64,000 nucleotides of DNA, taken from positions 426,451-490,450 of the forward strand of contig LN890280.1 in NCBI GenBank assembly GCA_900065925.1, read 5' to 3'. The translations under genes were made by a program, and so were the position numbers. This document shows, one piece after another, positions 3,676 through 10,917 of this stretch; position 1 is the first letter of the stretch; the number at the start of each line of letters is the position of its first letter. Source of the DNA: Nitrosotalea devaniterrae (GTDB lineage: Archaea; Thermoproteota; Nitrososphaeria; Nitrososphaerales; Nitrosopumilaceae). The notes beneath the pieces are model-generated. The model did no database searches. It had not been told where the DNA came from and saw nothing but the letters and a program-made list of their open reading frames with translations.

Positions 3676-4203
3676 CTAATCTTCGTCAAGTTCCTTGTCT
3701 ACTTTGTCTTTTAGTGACTTGTACTTGGTAAACCTCTTATTCCAATGTGAAAAGAAGCGGTATTCCTTAATCGCAATGAACAGCAAGATTATTGCAAACA
3801 CTATTGAAATTATGATGAACACTCGTAGTCCGAAAAATATTGGTGCCACATGAGATCTATCTCCGTATGGTTGCATCATTGGTAATTCTCTGACTACTGT
3901 ACCGTTTTGGTCCACAAGTTGGAGGTGCATTCCAGGCATCCGGTGCATACCTGTAAAGTTTTCACTAGGTTCCAGATGCTTTATGTTGTAATCTGGATGC
4001 TCAAGTAAAACTCCTCCCAAAATCAATGCAACAGGTCCGAAAAATAATGCACTTGCAATAAAAATCAAGAATAAACGTCTTGAACTATTAGTATGGGATA
4101 AAAGTTCATCTAAAATTTTCAGAATACTGTCAGATTCTTTCTTTGCGCCCTTGTCAGATGGAACTCCGTTATTTCCAGATTGATTATTTTCGGGTTCTGA
4201 CAT
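3676..4203 (-). CDS. Two-TM membrane protein of unknown function
   Basis: The 175-residue product has an acidic and polar cytoplasmic-type N-terminus, a membrane segment around residues 44-66, an external loop of about 60 residues rich in Met and His (HRMPGMHLQLVDQNGT), a second membrane segment around 127-150 and a charged C-terminal tail. The loop could bind metal or face the periplasm-like space, which is inference. A TATA-like TTTTTAATG lies about 25 bp before ATG 4203, supporting a leaderless transcript. I recognise no family. Confidence 0.75.
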   Translation of the reverse strand: MSEPENNQSGNNGVPSDKGAKKESDSILKILDELLSHTNSSRRLFLIFIASALFFGPVALILGGVLLEHPDYNIKHLEPSENFTGMHRMPGMHLQLVDQNGTVVRELPMMQPYGDRSHVAPIFFGLRVFIIISIVFAIILLFIAIKEYRFFSHWNKRFTKYKSLKDKVDKELDED

Positions 4204-4240
4204 TTACTAAAAACACTCCTGTTGCATTAAAAATGCTTCG

Positions 4241-4546
4241 CTAACTTTGTTCTTGATCACGTTTCTCACTCCTTGGAAATATGTCCTCATATGGTTCTAG
4301 AATTAACTTGCAAAACTCTCTTCCTTTTTGTGTAACCGCGTATTTTATTATTTTTTTATTTCCCCATGCCTGTTCTGCTCTGCTTATGAATCCTTTTCTC
4401 TCCAGGCTTTCAAGGATATCCTTGTGTTTCATTAAATTCAAACCGCAATAGCTAAGAAGTGATGTTTGATTGAGTTCGCCATGCTCTGTCAATTTTAATA
4501 TGATATCTTTTCTGATATAGACTCGGTCTCTGTATTCGTGCGACAA
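4241..4546 (-). CDS. Winged-helix DNA-binding regulator
   Basis: The domain runs from YRDRVYIRKDIILKL through a helix-turn-helix (ELNQTSLLSYCGLN) to the wing (LESLERKGFI ... IIKYAVTQKGREF), the layout of short archaeal winged-helix regulators of about 95 residues that usually begin just before a YRDR/RSR motif. I therefore prefer TTG 4546 (101 aa). The frame is open to TTG 4648, which would add 34 basic residues and place the start inside a putative operator. It is divergent from the secreted PepSY-like gene and adjacent to the first of four matching operators, so it is my candidate regulator for them (inference). Confidence 0.72.
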   Translation of the reverse strand: MSHEYRDRVYIRKDIILKLTEHGELNQTSLLSYCGLNLMKHKDILESLERKGFISRAEQAWGNKKIIKYAVTQKGREFCKLILEPYEDIFPRSEKRDQEQS

Positions 4547-4643: not shown

Positions 4644-4665
4644 AACAATGTTCACTGACATAGTT
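4644..4665 (+). promoter_or_regulatory. Operator-like paired box, site A
   Basis: Box AACAATGTT (4644-4652), 4-bp spacer, second box GACATAGTT (4657-4665). A TATA-like TTTTTTATT follows at about 4672-4680 and ATG 4705 comes 39 bp after the second box. Sites B, C and D share the architecture. It lies in the divergent region between the winged-helix gene and the secreted protein gene. Confidence 0.65.
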
Positions 4666-4704
4666 GCGCAATTTTTTATTAAGCAAATGTGCAATCTATG
4701 GATA

Positions 4705-5235
4705 ATGAATACAAAAGACCTCGTCAAGAACCACAAGATGCTTGCAGCCATAATTGGTGTGGCAATCATTGCTACACTGGGAGTGTCAGCAGCATCTGCA
4801 CAAGTTCAGGGAACACAAACAACTCAACAACCTCCAACAATACAGGGTACAATCAACCTACAGCAGACAATAATGTCTAATGTACAGACAAAATTCTCTG
4901 CAGCATCTGATACTGCCGCATCTGCAGTAACAAATGGAAAAACCATTGGTGGAAGCCTGACTGTTGCACAAGGATATGTTGTATATAGTTTCAAGGTCAT
5001 TGATGACAAGAATATGGTATATTCAGTAATTATCGATCCGGCAAATGATAAAGTTCTGTATACCTCTACTGGTCATCAATTTGGAATGGGCGGTTTTGCA
5101 ATGGGCGGCCAGCATGGAATGATGAAACATAAATTCCACATGGGCGGTAATCCTCAAAGCTCATCTCCATCTACACCTGGAACCACAAATCCTTCATCTG
5201 AAGACACAACTCCATACAGCGGATCACAATCCTGA
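4705..5235 (+). CDS. Secreted PepSY-like protein with Met/His-rich tail
   Basis: The 176-residue protein has a signal peptide (MNTKDLVKNHK, then a hydrophobic stretch ending ASAQ). A PepSY-like segment follows with the pattern ...GYVVYSFKVIDDKNMVYSV then IIDPANDKVLYTS. The tail has GMGGFAMGGQHGMMKHKFHM, which could bind copper or another soft metal, and then a Ser/Thr/Pro-rich end. ATG 4705 is chosen because it starts the signal peptide and sits about 28 bp after a TATA-like box and 39 bp after operator site A; the frame upstream to 4648 would cross that operator. Export and metal binding are inference. Confidence 0.8.
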   Translation: MNTKDLVKNHKMLAAIIGVAIIATLGVSAASAQVQGTQTTQQPPTIQGTINLQQTIMSNVQTKFSAASDTAASAVTNGKTIGGSLTVAQGYVVYSFKVIDDKNMVYSVIIDPANDKVLYTSTGHQFGMGGFAMGGQHGMMKHKFHMGGNPQSSSPSTPGTTNPSSEDTTPYSGSQS

Positions 5236-5257
5236 TCCAAAACTTTTTTCCTTTTTA
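5221..5257 (+). terminator. Stem-loop plus T-runs after the PepSY-like gene
   Basis: GGATCA (5221-5226) pairs with TGATCC (5233-5238) around a 6-nt loop, overlapping the stop codon, and is followed by AACTTTTTTCCTTTTT (5242-5257). T-runs are the usual archaeal termination signal; the hairpin adds a bacterial-like look. Confidence 0.5.
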
Positions 5258-5294
5258 TAGTAAAATGTTTTTGAAAAACAGTTTCTCCTTGAAT

Positions 5295-5316
5295 AACAAT
5301 GTTCCTTAACAATGTT
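5295..5316 (+). promoter_or_regulatory. Operator-like paired box, site B
   Basis: Two identical boxes AACAATGTT (5295-5303 and 5308-5316) separated by CCTT. A TATA-like TTTTATT (5326-5332) follows, centred about 25 bp before ATG 5354; the second box ends 37 bp before that ATG. This is the cleanest copy of the four. Confidence 0.7.
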
Positions 5317-5353
5317 TGATAAATGTTTTATTCAAAACGACTGGTAAAAAAAT

Positions 5354-5779
5354 ATGAAATCTGGGCTTGAATCAATTCCAAATTATGGACGTAAAATTCG
5401 TTCCCAGGAAACATTAGAGCACATCTGTGACATGATTTTAGACTTGGATTCTAATATCAGATTTGCAGGAATAATAAACAACAAGGGCAGACTTCTTACT
5501 GGTCATAAAAAGAAAGGAATTCTGACTTCTACTACTCCACAAGATCAAGAAATGTTACTCATGGAAACTGCATTGGGGATAAGAATGCGCAAAGAACATG
5601 ACTCCCACTTGGGACCTGTAAATTTCACCATCTCATATGGTGAGAAAATAGTGTCAATGAATTTTCCATTAGATGATGAAATCTTGTGCGTCTCTGCAGA
5701 AAAAAAGATCAATCTTATGACTGTGCCATTTCTAATACTGGAATTTTTGGAAACAAACGTGGATGAAAAAGAAGGATGA
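5354..5779 (+). CDS. DUF6659-like (roadblock-like) protein
   Basis: A 141-residue protein of a family abundant in Thaumarchaeota and, as I recall, catalogued as DUF6659. The pattern is ICDMILDLDSNIRFAGIINN (the family's I.LD..IRFAG core), a G/K-rich turn, LMETALGIRMRKEHDSHLG and a last strand with SMNFPLDDEILCVSAEK. The fold resembles roadblock/LC7 modules and may sense a ligand or bind a partner; no function is proven. It starts at ATG 5354, leaderless after operator B, and its stop overlaps the next start as ATGA, so it is co-translated with a zinc finger protein. Confidence 0.8.
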   Translation: MKSGLESIPNYGRKIRSQETLEHICDMILDLDSNIRFAGIINNKGRLLTGHKKKGILTSTTPQDQEMLLMETALGIRMRKEHDSHLGPVNFTISYGEKIVSMNFPLDDEILCVSAEKKINLMTVPFLILEFLETNVDEKEG

Positions 5780-5940
5780 CAGCAAAAAGTTCTGGTAATA
5801 TGGTTGATAGAAAAAAGAATTTCAAATGCAAGGAATGTGATATGGAATTTGATGACCCTGTAAGGCTAGAGAGACATTTCAAAGCAGCACATCCTGCAAA
5901 ACATGATGGATTTAGACCAAAATGGTATTGGGAAACTTAG
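5776..5940 (+). CDS. 54-aa C2H2 zinc finger protein
   Basis: ATG 5776 overlaps the TGA of the DUF6659-like gene (ATGA) and the frame stops at TAG 5938-5940. One C2H2 finger is visible: C18-x2-C21-x12-H34-x4-H39 (FKCKECDMEF ... RLERHFKAAHP), with the aromatic and leucine core positions in place, a basic N-terminus and an aromatic tail (FRPKWYWET). Single-finger archaeal proteins of this size may bind DNA or protein. The translational coupling suggests it works with the DUF6659-like protein, perhaps as its nucleic-acid arm (inference). Confidence 0.85.
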   Translation: MTAKSSGNMVDRKKNFKCKECDMEFDDPVRLERHFKAAHPAKHDGFRPKWYWET

Positions 5941-6197
5941 TGCATGTATTACAAGATTTTTCTGCAAAAGGCAAGTCAGAACAAAAATTTGCAAAATATT
6001 GTTCAACAAACTTTTCCAGTGATGAGTTTCACATGATGCAAATTAAGCTAGAACCACGAGATGTTGCAAGATTAAGCTCGTTTGGTAATAATGTGTGTAG
6101 GAAATGCACTATAAAATTGATTGAAGGAGACATTGTAGTGAGAATCGGTGCAAGACCTCCAAAATATTATCACAAGGAATGCTTCAAAGTATACTAG
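5922..6197 (+). CDS. Small zinc-binding protein (CxxC...HxxxC)
   Basis: The conserved-looking part is the last 53 residues, starting around ATG 6033 or 6036: a charged start, FGNNVCRKC, a turn with EGDIVVRIG, then YYHKECFKVY. The C-x2-C ... H-x3-C arrangement suggests one structural zinc site, as in LIM- or PARP-type half fingers. The frame is open back to ATG 5922, overlapping the C2H2 gene, but the added 37 residues look less conserved in type. It is the third gene of the operon behind operator B. Function unknown. Confidence 0.65.
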   Translation: MVLGNLVHVLQDFSAKGKSEQKFAKYCSTNFSSDEFHMMQIKLEPRDVARLSSFGNNVCRKCTIKLIEGDIVVRIGARPPKYYHKECFKVY

Positions 6198-6266
6198 TTT
6201 GATCTTAAACCTTGTCTATTCCATGTCTCTTTTAGACACAAAATTATGTGTGATCATGCTTTCACT

Positions 6267-6288
6267 AACAATGTTCCTTAACAAGGTT
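6267..6288 (+). promoter_or_regulatory. Operator-like paired box, site C
   Basis: AACAATGTT (6267-6275), CCTT, AACAAGGTT (6280-6288). TTTTATT (6298-6304) follows, and an ATG lies at 6327, 38 bp after the second box. That ATG opens a 24-codon frame (6327-6401) ending 21 bp before the ABC ATPase start, so the transporter operon either has a leader peptide or a leader of about 95 nt. Confidence 0.65.
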
Positions 6289-6422
6289 TGATAAGCATTT
6301 TATTCTAAAAATAAGAAAGAAAACTAATGACATCTTTCTTTTTGTATAGTTCACATAGTGCTTTTTTTTATAAATCTGAAAGTAAGATAGATGAATTCTA
6401 AAAGGGATTGGTTTTGGGAAAC

Positions 6423-7163
6423 ATGACAAAAGAATTGGTAGTTGAAAAAGAAACTCAAAATAAAATTGTTAATAATAGTTCATTTGCCTTAAAAGTGGAA
6501 AATCTCTCTAAAATTTATGATTCTGCTGCAGGACGAGTTGTTGCATTAGATAAAGTCAGTTTTGCCATAAAAAAAGGTGAATTTGTGTCTGTTGTAGGTC
6601 CATCTGGAAGTGGAAAGTCTACAGTTTTGAATTTGGTTGGGGCACTTGATAGACCAACAAGCGGAAAAATCTACATCGATGGAATTGACATATTTTCTCT
6701 TAATGATTCTAAAATTGCTACCATGCGAAACAGCCGTATTGGTTTTATTTTCCAGTCATTTAATTTGATTAATAGAACAACTGTACAAAAAAATGTAAAA
6801 TTGCCCGGAATAATTGCTGGTATGTCAAGCGATGATGCAAATTCTCGTTCTATTAAGATCCTAGAGGCTCTTGGTATTGCTGACAAGAAAAACCAAAAAC
6901 CAGTAAATCTCAGTGGTGGTCAGCAGCAACGAGTTGCAATTGCTCGCTCTTTGATAAACAATCCATCTATAATTTTGGCTGACGAACCAACTGGTAACTT
7001 GGATACAAAAACAGGAGATGATGTATTTGATATGCTAAAGATGCTTTCACATAAATTCAAACGTACTATAATCATGGTAACACACAATCCAGAACTTGCC
7101 GAATCTACCGATAGATCAATATTACTACGAGATGGGAGGATAGAAAAAGATGTTATCAACTAG
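6423..7163 (+). CDS. ABC transporter ATP-binding protein, MacB/LolD type
   Basis: A 246-residue nucleotide-binding domain with Walker [12 protein letters not shown]-loop FIFQSFNLI, signature [14 protein letters not shown], Walker [13 protein letters not shown] and the H-loop TMVTHN-like MVTHNPELA. The GNLD and [12 protein letters not shown] segments are typical of the LolD/MacB/FtsE branch, which drives mechanotransmission or extrusion rather than import. ATG 6423 is preferred over TTG 6408. It overlaps the following secreted protein gene by 14 bp, and the FtsX/MacB-like permease follows, so the three form one export or envelope complex behind operator C. Confidence 0.93.
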
Positions 7164-9339
7164 AATGCCTTTCAAGTTTTCAACTAGAGGACTTGGAGTA
7201 AAACTTGCTATTCCACTTTTGATTGTAATGCTATTTGTACCTACTACACTTTCAACTTTGAATGCATATGGACAAGTAGTTACAGTAGTGCCTTCTGGAA
7301 ATGGTCATTTGGGTATAGTGCAGACACAAGATTGTTTTGCACCGCTTACTACAATACTTGATGCAACTTATGCTGGACCTGTAGTTGTTGACTCGTATTG
7401 GGTTGATCAAGGAACATCTTCTGCTACTGATGTTACTAGTAATCCTGTGAAAAAAGAAATAGGTCCGGGAGAAGGACCATCTGTTTTTGCTGTAGTGTTT
7501 AACAATAGGGGAACAGCTTATTCAATAACTTCTATCACTGCTTTCCTTAACCTACCATCTGGATTCTCACCTACTGGGGAAAGCGCAAATCCTCAATTAC
7601 TCCAACATTACAATCAGGCATCAAGAGTTGCAACTACTCCGGCAATCGGAAACTATTATGGTACAGTAGCACCTGGAGCGTCATTTACTATGTATTTTAA
7701 CATAAATGTACTACCAACCGCAAAAGTAGGTACATTTGCAACAACAGCTGTTGCAAATTATGTTCAGGTAGGTGTAGTTGGACAACAATGTACTTCAGCA
7801 TTACTCAATGTACCACTTGTTCTTCCTGGAAAAGTAGTATTGGATGCATCTACTGTAATTTCTGATCTTGCACCTCAAAGTAAGGATTCAATTTCGATAG
7901 CAATTGAAAACAAGGGCTCTGCTGATGCAACAGGGGTAGTAGCAACAATTGTAAACCTTGGTAATTCTAAAGGTGGTACAGGAAGTAGTGGGAGTGGAGG
8001 GTCTGTTGTATTACAATCATCAACAACTCAAATTGTCAATCTTGGACCTAATACTTTCAATCTGGGAACAATCCCTGCAAAATCAAAAGCGGTGATAAGT
8101 ACAACGGTTTATCCGGGTACTGCTGCAAGTGGTTCCACTCAAGAAGTGCAACTTCAGATAGACTACCAAAATGCGTGGGGTAAGCTTTTGACCACTACAA
8201 TTAGTACCGGACTTGTAATAGCACCAAATCCAGCACAATCTCTTAGCTTATCATATCTTGGAAATACATCAACTCCTGTGATCACTGCATCTGCATTAGA
8301 TGATCTTAATTTTGCTGTTGCAAACAATAGTACTGATCCTATGTCAAATATCCTAATCTCACTTGTACCACAATCTACCTCGGTCTCTGTAGTTGGTCCA
8401 TCCACTTGGACAATAACAGATTTAGAACCAGGAGATAGACAGATACTCACAACCAAAGTATATGCGGCAAATACCTTGATCAATAGTCCGACCTCTTTTA
8501 CATTGACTGCAAATTATGTCTCAAAAGGACAAACACAAACAAACTCTCTTACACTGGGAACTTTTGTAGTTGGAGACATCAAACTCCAAATATATGGTTT
8601 AACTGCAAGTTCTGCTGGCGGAACTTCTAATCTTGTGGGTAACTTACTAAATCAAGGTAGTACAACTGCATTGTATACCACTGTACAACTTGCACCTTCA
8701 CAACTCACGAGTGCCATGAAAGCTGCACGACTTGCAAATTCTACAAATAACCAAACTGGACATTCATTTGGACAATCTGCACAAGGTGGAGACCAAGGAT
8801 TCCAGGGAGTACAAGGCACAGGCGGTCAAGGATTTCAAGGTGGACAGGGAGCTGGGGGCCAAGGATTCCAGGGAGGACAAGGAGGCGGAGGTCAAGGACG
8901 TTCTGGTCCGGGATTCCAAGGCGGTGGTGGCCAGAGAGGCTCGAGCTCAACTAATGGACCACAATTCATAGGAGATCTTTCGCCGGATTCACCAATTCCA
9001 ATCAATGTACCACTTAGACTTAATTCTCTACCGTCTGGAATGTATCAAGTAGCATTCAAGGTAGTGTATGCCGATGATTTGAAGAACTTTCACACTGTAA
9101 TATTAAACGGAACAGTTTTTGTTGCTAAAAGTGCACCAACCACTGCACCACAATCTGAATCTATACTTGATCAGATCCCTCTACCAGTAATTATTGGAAT
9201 CCCAATTGCGGTAGCAGTAGCAATTGCATTCATAATAAAAAGAAAAAGATCAGCAAAGAAAAAATTGAGTTTGTTAACACAGGGGGATACTGATATAGTC
9301 TCAATATTTGATGGCACTAAGAAGGAAAATGAATCCTAA
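7150..9339 (+). CDS. Large secreted, C-terminally anchored adaptor protein
   Basis: The 729-residue protein has a signal peptide ([13 protein letters not shown], ending near NAYGQ), several tandem beta-rich modules typical of COG1361/CARDB-like envelope proteins (repeated [15 protein letters not shown]-type blocks around residues 230-500), a Gly/Gln/Phe-rich repeat tract at about residues 537-600, one more beta segment and a C-terminal membrane helix ([18 protein letters not shown]) followed by RKR and a short cytoplasmic tail. It sits between the ATPase and the permease with overlaps on both sides, so it is probably their extracellular partner or substrate-capture arm (inference). Confidence 0.85.
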
Positions 9340-10570
9340 AGATCTTTTTTTATTGTCATTTGAAGCACTAGTTGATAGAAAAGTCAGAACACTACTTACA
9401 ATTCTGATGGTTGTACTTGGCAGCAGTCTTGTTGTAGTGTTAAACGGTTTGAGTGCCGGTCAATCCGCATTCTTGGAAAAACAACTCAATACATTGGCAG
9501 CAAATGTTCTTTTTGTAGGTAGTGGACAGCGTTCCCTTAGCTCATTTGCAACTTCCACCAGTAATTCAATAACAATTAATGATGTTATAGTACAAAAACT
9601 TAGGAGTCTTCCAAATGTGTCTGATGTCATACCAGAGTATACTGGTTCAGTACAAATGAATTCAGAAGGAAACACTCAACGCGCTTCAATCACTGCAATT
9701 GACCCTTCAAAATTACCTGTAGAGTTGCCAAATCTTGAATACGTTGATGGCTCAACAGTAAGTCCGGGCGATCGATCCGCTGCACTGGTGGGGGATACAA
9801 TAGTAAATCCTCCTGGGGCAGATAGTGCTTTTGTTGTGCTTGGTCAAACAATCAAGGCGACTGCAACCTATACTGATGCTGGAAAGCAAGTAACTGTAGT
9901 AAAGAATTTTGTAGTTACGGGAATTCTAAAACCGTCTGGCAATACGGGAATAGACCGTTCAATTATAGTAAATCTTGATGCTGGTAATCAATTATTGCAC
10001 AAGCAGAACCGATATGATCAGGTAATAATTGCTGCAACCACTCCTGAGGATGTTGATACAGTACAGCAGGAGATCACTGGCATGTTTGGAAAAACTCTTG
10101 GTGCTACAACTCCAAAGGCAATCATGGCAGTAAGACAACAAGCTGCAAGTGGAAATGCTGCTTTTATTCTCATGGTCGGAATCATTGCACTTGTTGTGGG
10201 AGCAGTTGGTATTGTTACAACGTTATACAATTCAGTTACAGAACGAATTAGAGAGATAGGTACCATGAAAGCAATTGGAGCTCAAAACATAACCATTCTT
10301 GCACTGTTTCTAGTAGAGGCCAGCTTGATTGGAGTGATAGGGGCTTCGCTTGGAACTGTAATAGGTATTGGTGGTGGATACATAATGAGTATCGCTACAA
10401 CTACTACTCCTACAGGCGGCGGTCCACCCATACATATACCACCAATCTTTGTTCCAATGGATTTGATTAAAGTCTGGTTGCTTTCTCTTACACTAAGTGT
10501 TTTGGCTGGAATGTATCCTGCATGGAAGGCATCAAAACTGTCTCCAATGGTAGCATTAAGAAGAGAATAG
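9329..10570 (+). CDS. ABC transporter permease, MacB/FtsX family
   Basis: A 413-residue permease with the MacB layout: a cytosolic N-terminus (FEALVDRKVRTLLTILM), first membrane helix, a periplasmic-type MacB core domain of about 220 residues with Ser/Thr-rich loops, then three membrane helices containing TERIREIGTMKAIGA and a final MYPAWKASKLSPMVALRRE, the family's diagnostic end. ATG 9329 follows GAAGGA and overlaps the adaptor gene by 11 bp; TTG 9308 or ATG 9311 would be longer. In MacB systems this subunit transmits ATPase strokes to an external partner, here the preceding secreted protein. Confidence 0.93.
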   Translation: MNPKDLFLLSFEALVDRKVRTLLTILMVVLGSSLVVVLNGLSAGQSAFLEKQLNTLAANVLFVGSGQRSLSSFATSTSNSITINDVIVQKLRSLPNVSDVIPEYTGSVQMNSEGNTQRASITAIDPSKLPVELPNLEYVDGSTVSPGDRSAALVGDTIVNPPGADSAFVVLGQTIKATATYTDAGKQVTVVKNFVVTGILKPSGNTGIDRSIIVNLDAGNQLLHKQNRYDQVIIAATTPEDVDTVQQEITGMFGKTLGATTPKAIMAVRQQAASGNAAFILMVGIIALVVGAVGIVTTLYNSVTERIREIGTMKAIGAQNITILALFLVEASLIGVIGASLGTVIGIGGGYIMSIATTTTPTGGGPPIHIPPIFVPMDLIKVWLLSLTLSVLAGMYPAWKASKLSPMVALRRE

Positions 10571-10731
10571 ATTATCTCAAAGTACAAAATAATTTTAATT
10601 TCTTTTTTGATATTAATGTATGGTCCGGAAACAAGAATGCCAATTCCTCATGTAGTTAGAAAAACCTTGCAGTAGAATCCCCCACAGTTTTATATTTTTG
10701 AAATATTGGTTGATAAAATAAAATATTACTT

Positions 10732-10857
10732 CTATCCTGAAATCATTGGAACTACAGTCTTTACCGTCATCTGTGCTGCAGCAGAAAATATGTCGCCTGA
10801 AAATGGGACTATTAGCATCATTATGTAGGCCGCAAGCATACTACATTCTCTGTTCAT
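10732..10857 (-). CDS. 41-aa hydrophobic peptide behind operator D
   Basis: ATG 10857 opens 41 codons ending at 10732: a short N-terminus (MNREC), a hydrophobic stretch (SMLAAYIMMLIVPF) and a polar tail (SAAAQMTVKTVVPMISG). It looks like a small exported or membrane peptide. Support is mostly from the promoter: a TATA box (TTATAAAC, centre near 10882) lies 25 bp upstream and operator D ends 38 bp upstream, the same geometry as at the other three operator genes. No homologue is recognised. Confidence 0.55.
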   Translation of the reverse strand: MNRECSMLAAYIMMLIVPFSGDIFSAAAQMTVKTVVPMISG

Positions 10858-10895
10858 ATGGTATAGTATACATTTTTGTTTATAATGGATTGTGC

Positions 10896-10917
10896 AACCA
10901 TGTTCAGTAACATGGTT
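10896..10917 (-). promoter_or_regulatory. Operator-like paired box, site D
   Basis: AACCATGTT and AACATGGTT separated by 4 bp; the two boxes are exact reverse complements, so this copy is a perfect inverted repeat. On the minus strand it precedes a TATA box and ATG 10857 with the same spacing as sites A-C. Confidence 0.65.

Follow-up and report, generated by a model that had tools for sequence, protein, structure and literature searches.

We found a 22-bp palindromic operator that is shared by a set of promoters in the genome analyzed here and in its relatives. It lies at a fixed distance from the TATA box and the start codon, is conserved, and is linked in the genome to a two-gene unit encoding a winged-helix protein (WH-A) and a membrane protein (T). 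An account that we consider probable on the sequence evidence is that the palindrome is the operator of WH-A, that WH-A and T form a pair, and that WH-A activates at least eight promoters.

RESULTS

The paired boxes form one palindrome

The preliminary description of the window, that is, the whole 64-kb stretch of DNA analyzed, had reported four sites with two 9-bp boxes each, and both the coordinates and the 4-bp gap proved exact in all four:

4644..4665, plus strand: operator A, AACAATGTTCACTGACATAGTT, ahead of the PepSY-like gene, with WH-A divergent on its other side
5295..5316, plus strand: operator B, AACAATGTTCCTTAACAATGTT
6267..6288, plus strand: operator C, AACAATGTTCCTTAACAAGGTT
10896..10917, minus strand: operator D, AACCATGTTACTGAACATGGTT

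Since each site matches on both strands, the box pair is a single 22-bp palindrome, AACAwTGTTCnnGAACAwTGTT, made of two AACnnnGTT boxes 13 bp apart from center to center. A search of the 64-kb window for AACAATGTT-N4-AACAATGTT with up to three mismatches returned these four places only, each on both strands (8 matches), against an average of 0.45 and at most 3 in shuffled controls, none of 100 shuffles reaching 8. Operator A is kept at L023, L026, L029, and L030 and in many Nitrosotalea genomes, and the operator D promoter fits the combined operator and TATA pattern with 0 mismatches. Some promoters carry three boxes at 13-bp steps (L024:1430-1464, L025:4441-4475, and L158:2312-2346); the third box, where present (e.g., L024 and G201), keeps the 13-bp period, which suggests that several dimers may bind cooperatively.

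Operator, TATA box, and start codon are held in register

As previously proposed, the operator lies on the BRE side of the TATA box: the palindrome abuts BRE, and the TATA box follows about 10 bp downstream. The TTAT elements of the window promoters are as follows:

4676..4679, plus strand: TTAT of TATA box A, 10 bp past operator A
5328..5331, plus strand: TTAT of TATA box B
6300..6303, plus strand: TTAT of TATA box C
10882..10885, minus strand: TTAT of TATA box D

The distance from box to ATG, given earlier as 37-39 bp, was measured at 39 bp for A (ATG at 4705), 37 bp for B (5354), 37 bp for C (6326), and 38 bp for D (10857). A common operator/TATA architecture was found in 109 distinct canonical promoters from this and related genomes. 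Operator positions 1-3, 6-9, 15-17, and 20-21 hold one base in 96-100% of them, a BRE-like AA is present at +5/+6 in 96-97%, and the TATA-box TT at +11/+12 in 98-100%, percentages that describe the architecture and do not prove it, the promoters having been chosen for the motif and a TATA-like element. In the flanks of all sites, taken before any selection for TATA, TTAT or TTTA occurred at +9, +10, and +11 in 79, 132, and 52 cases, respectively, and at other positions in 0-19. Start-codon offsets in the site flanks peaked at 37-40 bp past the operator, and in most conserved promoters the codon stands at +37 to +40, in line with the earlier expectation that transcription begins at the predicted ATGs. 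By sequence, the sites thus lie directly upstream of BRE/TATA at a fixed distance, as sites of an activator acting upstream of BRE would.

Judging from standard archaeal promoters, a start codon about 25 bp beyond the TATA box implies a transcription start at that codon or immediately beside it. The transcripts are thus probably leaderless, which would place the operator at about -59 to -38 of the start. In family f13, the start codon mostly stands about 49 bp from the operator and is preceded by a ribosome-binding-like GAGGTG, so that the leaderless geometry is not universal there.

Genes driven by the window promoters

The four window promoters stand before the following genes:

4705..5235, plus strand: target A, secreted PepSY-like protein, ATG at +39
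5354..5779, plus strand: target B, DUF6659 protein (Pfam DUF6659, 2.2e-12), ATG at +37
5776-5940: C2H2-like zinc-finger ORF in an apparent operon opened by target B
6326..6400, plus strand: leader ORF of 24 codons, MTSFFLYSSHSAFFYKSESKIDEF, ATG at +37
6408..10570, plus strand: target C, MacB-type ABC operon, with the leader ORF ahead of it
6408-7163, plus strand: ATPase of target C
7150-9339, plus strand: 729-aa secreted protein of target C
9308-10570, plus strand: FtsX/MacB permease of target C
10732..10857, minus strand: target D, 41-aa hydrophobic peptide, ATG at +38

Target A matches Pfam PepSY below the cut-off (E = 0.014), and its counterparts in Nitrososphaeraceae match above it (4.5e-8 and 2.1e-5). 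The target B promoter is likewise present in about 10 relatives. Target C matched Pfam ABC_tran (1.7e-35), FtsX (2.7e-20), and MacB_PCD (1.7e-19), together with LolCE/MacB-like NCBIfam models below their cut-offs. An ORF of 16-25 codons ending in (I/M/L)D(E/G)F, IDEF at this locus, is kept at the leader position in many relatives. Its last codons (GATGAATTCTAA in this genome) hold an ATG where the ABC gene of relatives begins (e.g., at L023), suggesting translational coupling. Read from that ATG, the frame in this genome runs for 11 codons before a stop, so that the ABC protein seems to start later. The target D promoter and ORF recur together at five loci including this one (L024, L025, L027, L176, and L192), and a related 45-aa peptide is encoded in L028 and L167; this joint conservation makes the 41-aa peptide probably a real gene.

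The regulon extends beyond the window

Relatives of the locus include Candidatus Nitrosotalea and Thaumarchaeota MAGs, from which we take the host, an ammonia-oxidizing archaeon, to be a Nitrosotalea. Its genome (1.805 Mb) was scanned by mismatch pattern search, with flanks taken around matches only. AACAWTGTTCNNGAACAWTGTT with up to three mismatches gave 10 sites, and the reversed control gave 0. The motif is therefore not scattered at random, and the boxes are conserved in orthologous promoters; random scatter and lack of such conservation were two outcomes that the preliminary description had named as speaking against its proposal. Seven of the 10 matches, plus one weaker site, have a TATA box and start codon in register, giving at least eight promoters at five separate places in the genome, so that the operator is common to several unlinked promoters above chance. 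The idea of a small regulon thus stood, with the size revised from four genes to at least eight promoters. Those outside the window are marked by these operators:

C1:606759: operator before WH-B, a second winged-helix gene, next to a multicopper-oxidase-like gene
1095349: operator before a 1137-aa Ig-repeat surface protein
1225318: operator before a 76-aa protein
1185639: weaker operator before a 317-aa secreted protein

The remaining three of the 10 matches (C1:1281936, 1304631, and 1319966) are doubtful, one outer box being poor in each, and 1319966 falls inside an ORF.

All 37 genomes of the genus (37/37) contained matches at up to three mismatches, mostly in excess of their control counts. 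In relatives, the operator promoter also drives further PepSY paralogues and Ig-repeat proteins and, in one relative (G201, L161 about 1904-2598), a Rieske-like TAT-exported protein whose operator is in register with a GTG start at +37. Single matches in G006, G042, G095, and G118 were set aside as lacking WH-A or a recognizable architecture. Most targets are exported or membrane proteins (PepSY, Ig-repeat surface proteins, the MacB-type ABC system, the hydrophobic peptide, and the G201 Rieske-like protein), the exceptions being DUF6659, the 76-aa protein, and WH-B. Of the envelope-stress regulon suggested earlier, the envelope part fits most targets, and the stress part is unsupported.

The operator is linked to a winged-helix gene and its candidate membrane partner

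The two genes of the candidate regulatory unit lie beside operator A:

4241..4546, minus strand: WH-A, HTH_45/Sso10a-like winged-helix protein of 101 aa, probable TTG start
3676..4203, minus strand: T, membrane protein with two predicted TM helices flanking a loop that contains a beta-hairpin, directly downstream of WH-A

WH-A matches Pfam HTH_45 (PF14947) above the gathering cut-off (1.2e-7, 32.0 bits versus 25.5) and Sso10a_fam (NF053610) below the curated cut-off (6e-7, 29.4 bits versus 60); a PDB sequence search returned weak matches only, mostly MarR-like. Structure models built on shallow alignments were of low confidence (mean pLDDT 49 for WH-A and 55 for T).

The earlier choice of the protein at 4241-4546 as the best regulator candidate was borne out by the palindrome standing beside its orthologues across several genera and families, a second genus of Nitrosopumilaceae among them, which strongly supports WH-A in this putative role. 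Where the region upstream of WH-A could be read in Nitrosotalea genomes, the palindrome nearly always adjoins the gene, in almost every case about 80-110 bp before its start. An operator with up to four mismatches occurred within 1.2 kb of WH-A at 29 of 37 loci of at least 74% identity (reversed control, 1/37), 8 of 13 at 66-74%, 5 of 17 at 58-66%, and 2 of 8 below 58% (control 0 in each of these three classes). Over the family, 44 of 75 distinct loci had an operator within 1.2 kb, against 1 in the reversed control; many of these loci are close relatives and do not amount to 75 independent observations, so that independent support for the linkage comes from the different lineages with an operator beside WH-A.

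Those lineages vary in what surrounds the pair. Within Nitrosotalea, the neighbor changes and the linkage stays: depending on the genome, the gene divergent from WH-A is PepSY, DUF6659, or MacB-type. Outside the genus, the operator adjoining WH-A usually drives a secreted protein, often PepSY. In G018 (family f2), whose WH-A is 68% identical, the palindrome lies between WH-A and a divergent PepSY-like gene, 54 bp before the former and with the ATG of the latter at +37. G047, the only other f2 genome with WH-A, has a weaker site (4 mismatches) before another secreted protein at +38. The f2 genomes without WH-A (G001, G030, G039, G055, and G062) had no site at up to two mismatches; given the 4 mismatches of the G047 site, the contrast is firm only for G018. 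One Nitrososphaeraceae genome (G032) has the operator followed by PepSY, WH-A, and T on one strand in an apparent operon, its PepSY protein scoring above the Pfam cut-off. Two g7 genomes (a genus that is probably Nitrosopumilus), f13, g34, and some g41 genomes show the order WH-A, T, operator, secreted gene. The candidate regulator gene is thus a neighbor of the operator, and the two are conserved together, which in itself is no proof that WH-A binds there.

Of the 37 WH-A loci of at least 74% identity, 8 had no operator at up to four mismatches; most of these 8 belong to Nitrososphaeraceae, where a diverged core is present in some. A WH-A paralogue with about 60% identity (G000:C1:675232-675507, L145) also had no operator. 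It is convergent with a distant T homologue, and G024 and G051 have a comparable pair; this is possibly a parallel regulatory pair with an operator of its own. Two incomplete Nitrosotalea MAGs (G208 and G230) have sites and no WH-A that we could find, possibly owing to missing contigs. Copies of WH-A with in-frame stops or breaks (L123 in G207, L183 in G206, and G198:C45:59133-59435) suggest decay or assembly errors.

The preliminary description had missed T, as well as the second winged-helix gene among the targets. WH-A usually stands in a two-gene unit with T, the two being adjacent in f1, f2, f8, f13, and f14, and the pairing is kept even where the operator was not found. No family match for T was obtained in Pfam or NCBIfam. 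Its loop of 50-60 residues carries the conserved pattern G-x-H-L-Q-L-V-x-x-N-G-T-V, and the low-confidence model places helices at 40-67 and 120-173 with strands between them. By its adjacency, T is a candidate partner or sensor of WH-A. Several Nitrosotalea share a weaker operator-like sequence, here at 4229-4250 on the minus strand, that runs across the end of the WH-A gene right ahead of T; either an internal promoter for T or coding conservation could account for it. Copper or metal sensing, considered in view of the Met/His-rich tails of the PepSY protein and the T loop, is a weak lead, the residues being unconserved in the T alignment and, in part, in PepSY.

DISCUSSION

Proposed mechanism and alternatives

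We propose that a WH-A dimer binds the palindrome or, as the four AACA/TGTT half-sites would allow, that two dimers do. WH-A would sit immediately upstream of BRE and recruit or stabilize TFB/TBP, most likely activating at least eight promoters, namely, the four in the window and those of WH-B and the 1137-aa Ig-repeat, 76-aa, and 317-aa secreted proteins. The sign of regulation does not follow from the position of the operator by itself; we lean toward activation because the site lies just upstream of BRE, where archaeal activators such as EarA typically bind.

The alternative that survives best keeps the same regulon and makes WH-A a repressor that blocks TFB at BRE until a signal, perhaps via T, releases it. 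There is no spacer between the operator and the BRE-like element, and a bulky protein there could exclude TFB; autoregulation and a divergent arrangement are, moreover, common for repressors. Repressor sites, however, usually overlap TATA/BRE or the start, whereas the palindrome ends before the BRE AA in the 109 promoters, and contact with TFB/TBP would call for just such a strict operator-TATA spacing, here about 10 bp. We consider repression less likely than activation.

Less likely still is that another protein, WH-B or an unrecognized global regulator, binds the operator, with WH-A as its frequent neighbor or target. WH-B is also a winged-helix protein (Pfam HTH_45, 36.0 bits, above the cut-off; Sso10a_fam, 34.4 bits, below the cut-off of 60), and its orthologues (at least 74% identity) have the operator exactly 37 bp before their start. 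Such orthologues, however, occur in only part of the genus; G209, G180, G200, G198, and G206 have sites, and their best WH-B match is a paralogue of 55-59% identity. WH-B was rejected as a master regulator because sites exist in genomes without it, and outside the genus the site tracks WH-A/T. An operator before its orthologues points instead to WH-B as a target, perhaps a second tier; its more distant paralogues mostly have no operator.

An architectural or strong-promoter element with no dedicated regulator, such as a site for Sso10a-type chromatin proteins, which bend and organize DNA (PMC4941522) and to whose family WH-A is weakly similar, is very improbable given only about eight sites per genome, palindromic, confined to a restricted promoter set, and linked to one gene pair.

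To return to WH-A as an activator: if a DNA-binding protein with secreted proteins as targets has a partner in the membrane, a signal may be relayed from outside, and T may thus pass an envelope signal to WH-A. More tentatively, WH-A/T could be a transmembrane signaling pair widespread in Nitrososphaeria, in which T, a two-TM protein bearing a small sensor loop on the outside, controls the WH-A activator without phosphorylation. PepSY and other secreted proteins would be switched on from mostly leaderless promoters of fixed geometry, and in Nitrosotalea WH-B would add a second tier.

Ammonia-oxidizing archaea are major nitrifiers in which almost no gene-control circuit is known. The analysis yields an exact operator sequence, together with its candidate regulator, a putative membrane partner of that protein, and a set of targets. 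Start codons, such as the GTG of the G201 Rieske-like protein, are easier to assign with the 37-40 bp rule, which is also of use in finding small genes such as that of the 41-aa peptide.

Comparison with known systems

Our literature search, in which subscription papers were sparsely covered, returned no published description of this operator, regulator, or regulon, and none of this kind for ammonia-oxidizing archaea. Archaeal activators of the Ptr2/TrmBL1 type have sites upstream of BRE, and the operator described here resembles theirs in position relative to BRE and TATA; the protein families and operator sequences differ. SurR of Pyrococcus is a winged-helix protein with GTTn3AAC boxes. It shares with our system a winged helix and short AAC/GTT boxes, but the half-site order is inverted and the spacing unlike, as judged from the box pattern only. 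Sso10a proteins are DNA-bending chromatin organizers (PMC4941522); both WH-A and WH-B match HTH_45 above the cut-off and Sso10a_fam weakly, but WH-A has links to a specific operator and to a membrane gene and falls well short of the Sso10a_fam cut-off. EarA, the archaellum activator of Methanococcus maripaludis, likewise uses several short boxes immediately upstream of BRE/TATA (PMC5512572). There, however, four 6-bp boxes serve the fla operon, whereas here one 22-bp palindrome serves at least eight promoters; the comparison is one of site position. Taken together, regulon and operator are both new, and their general type is a known one.
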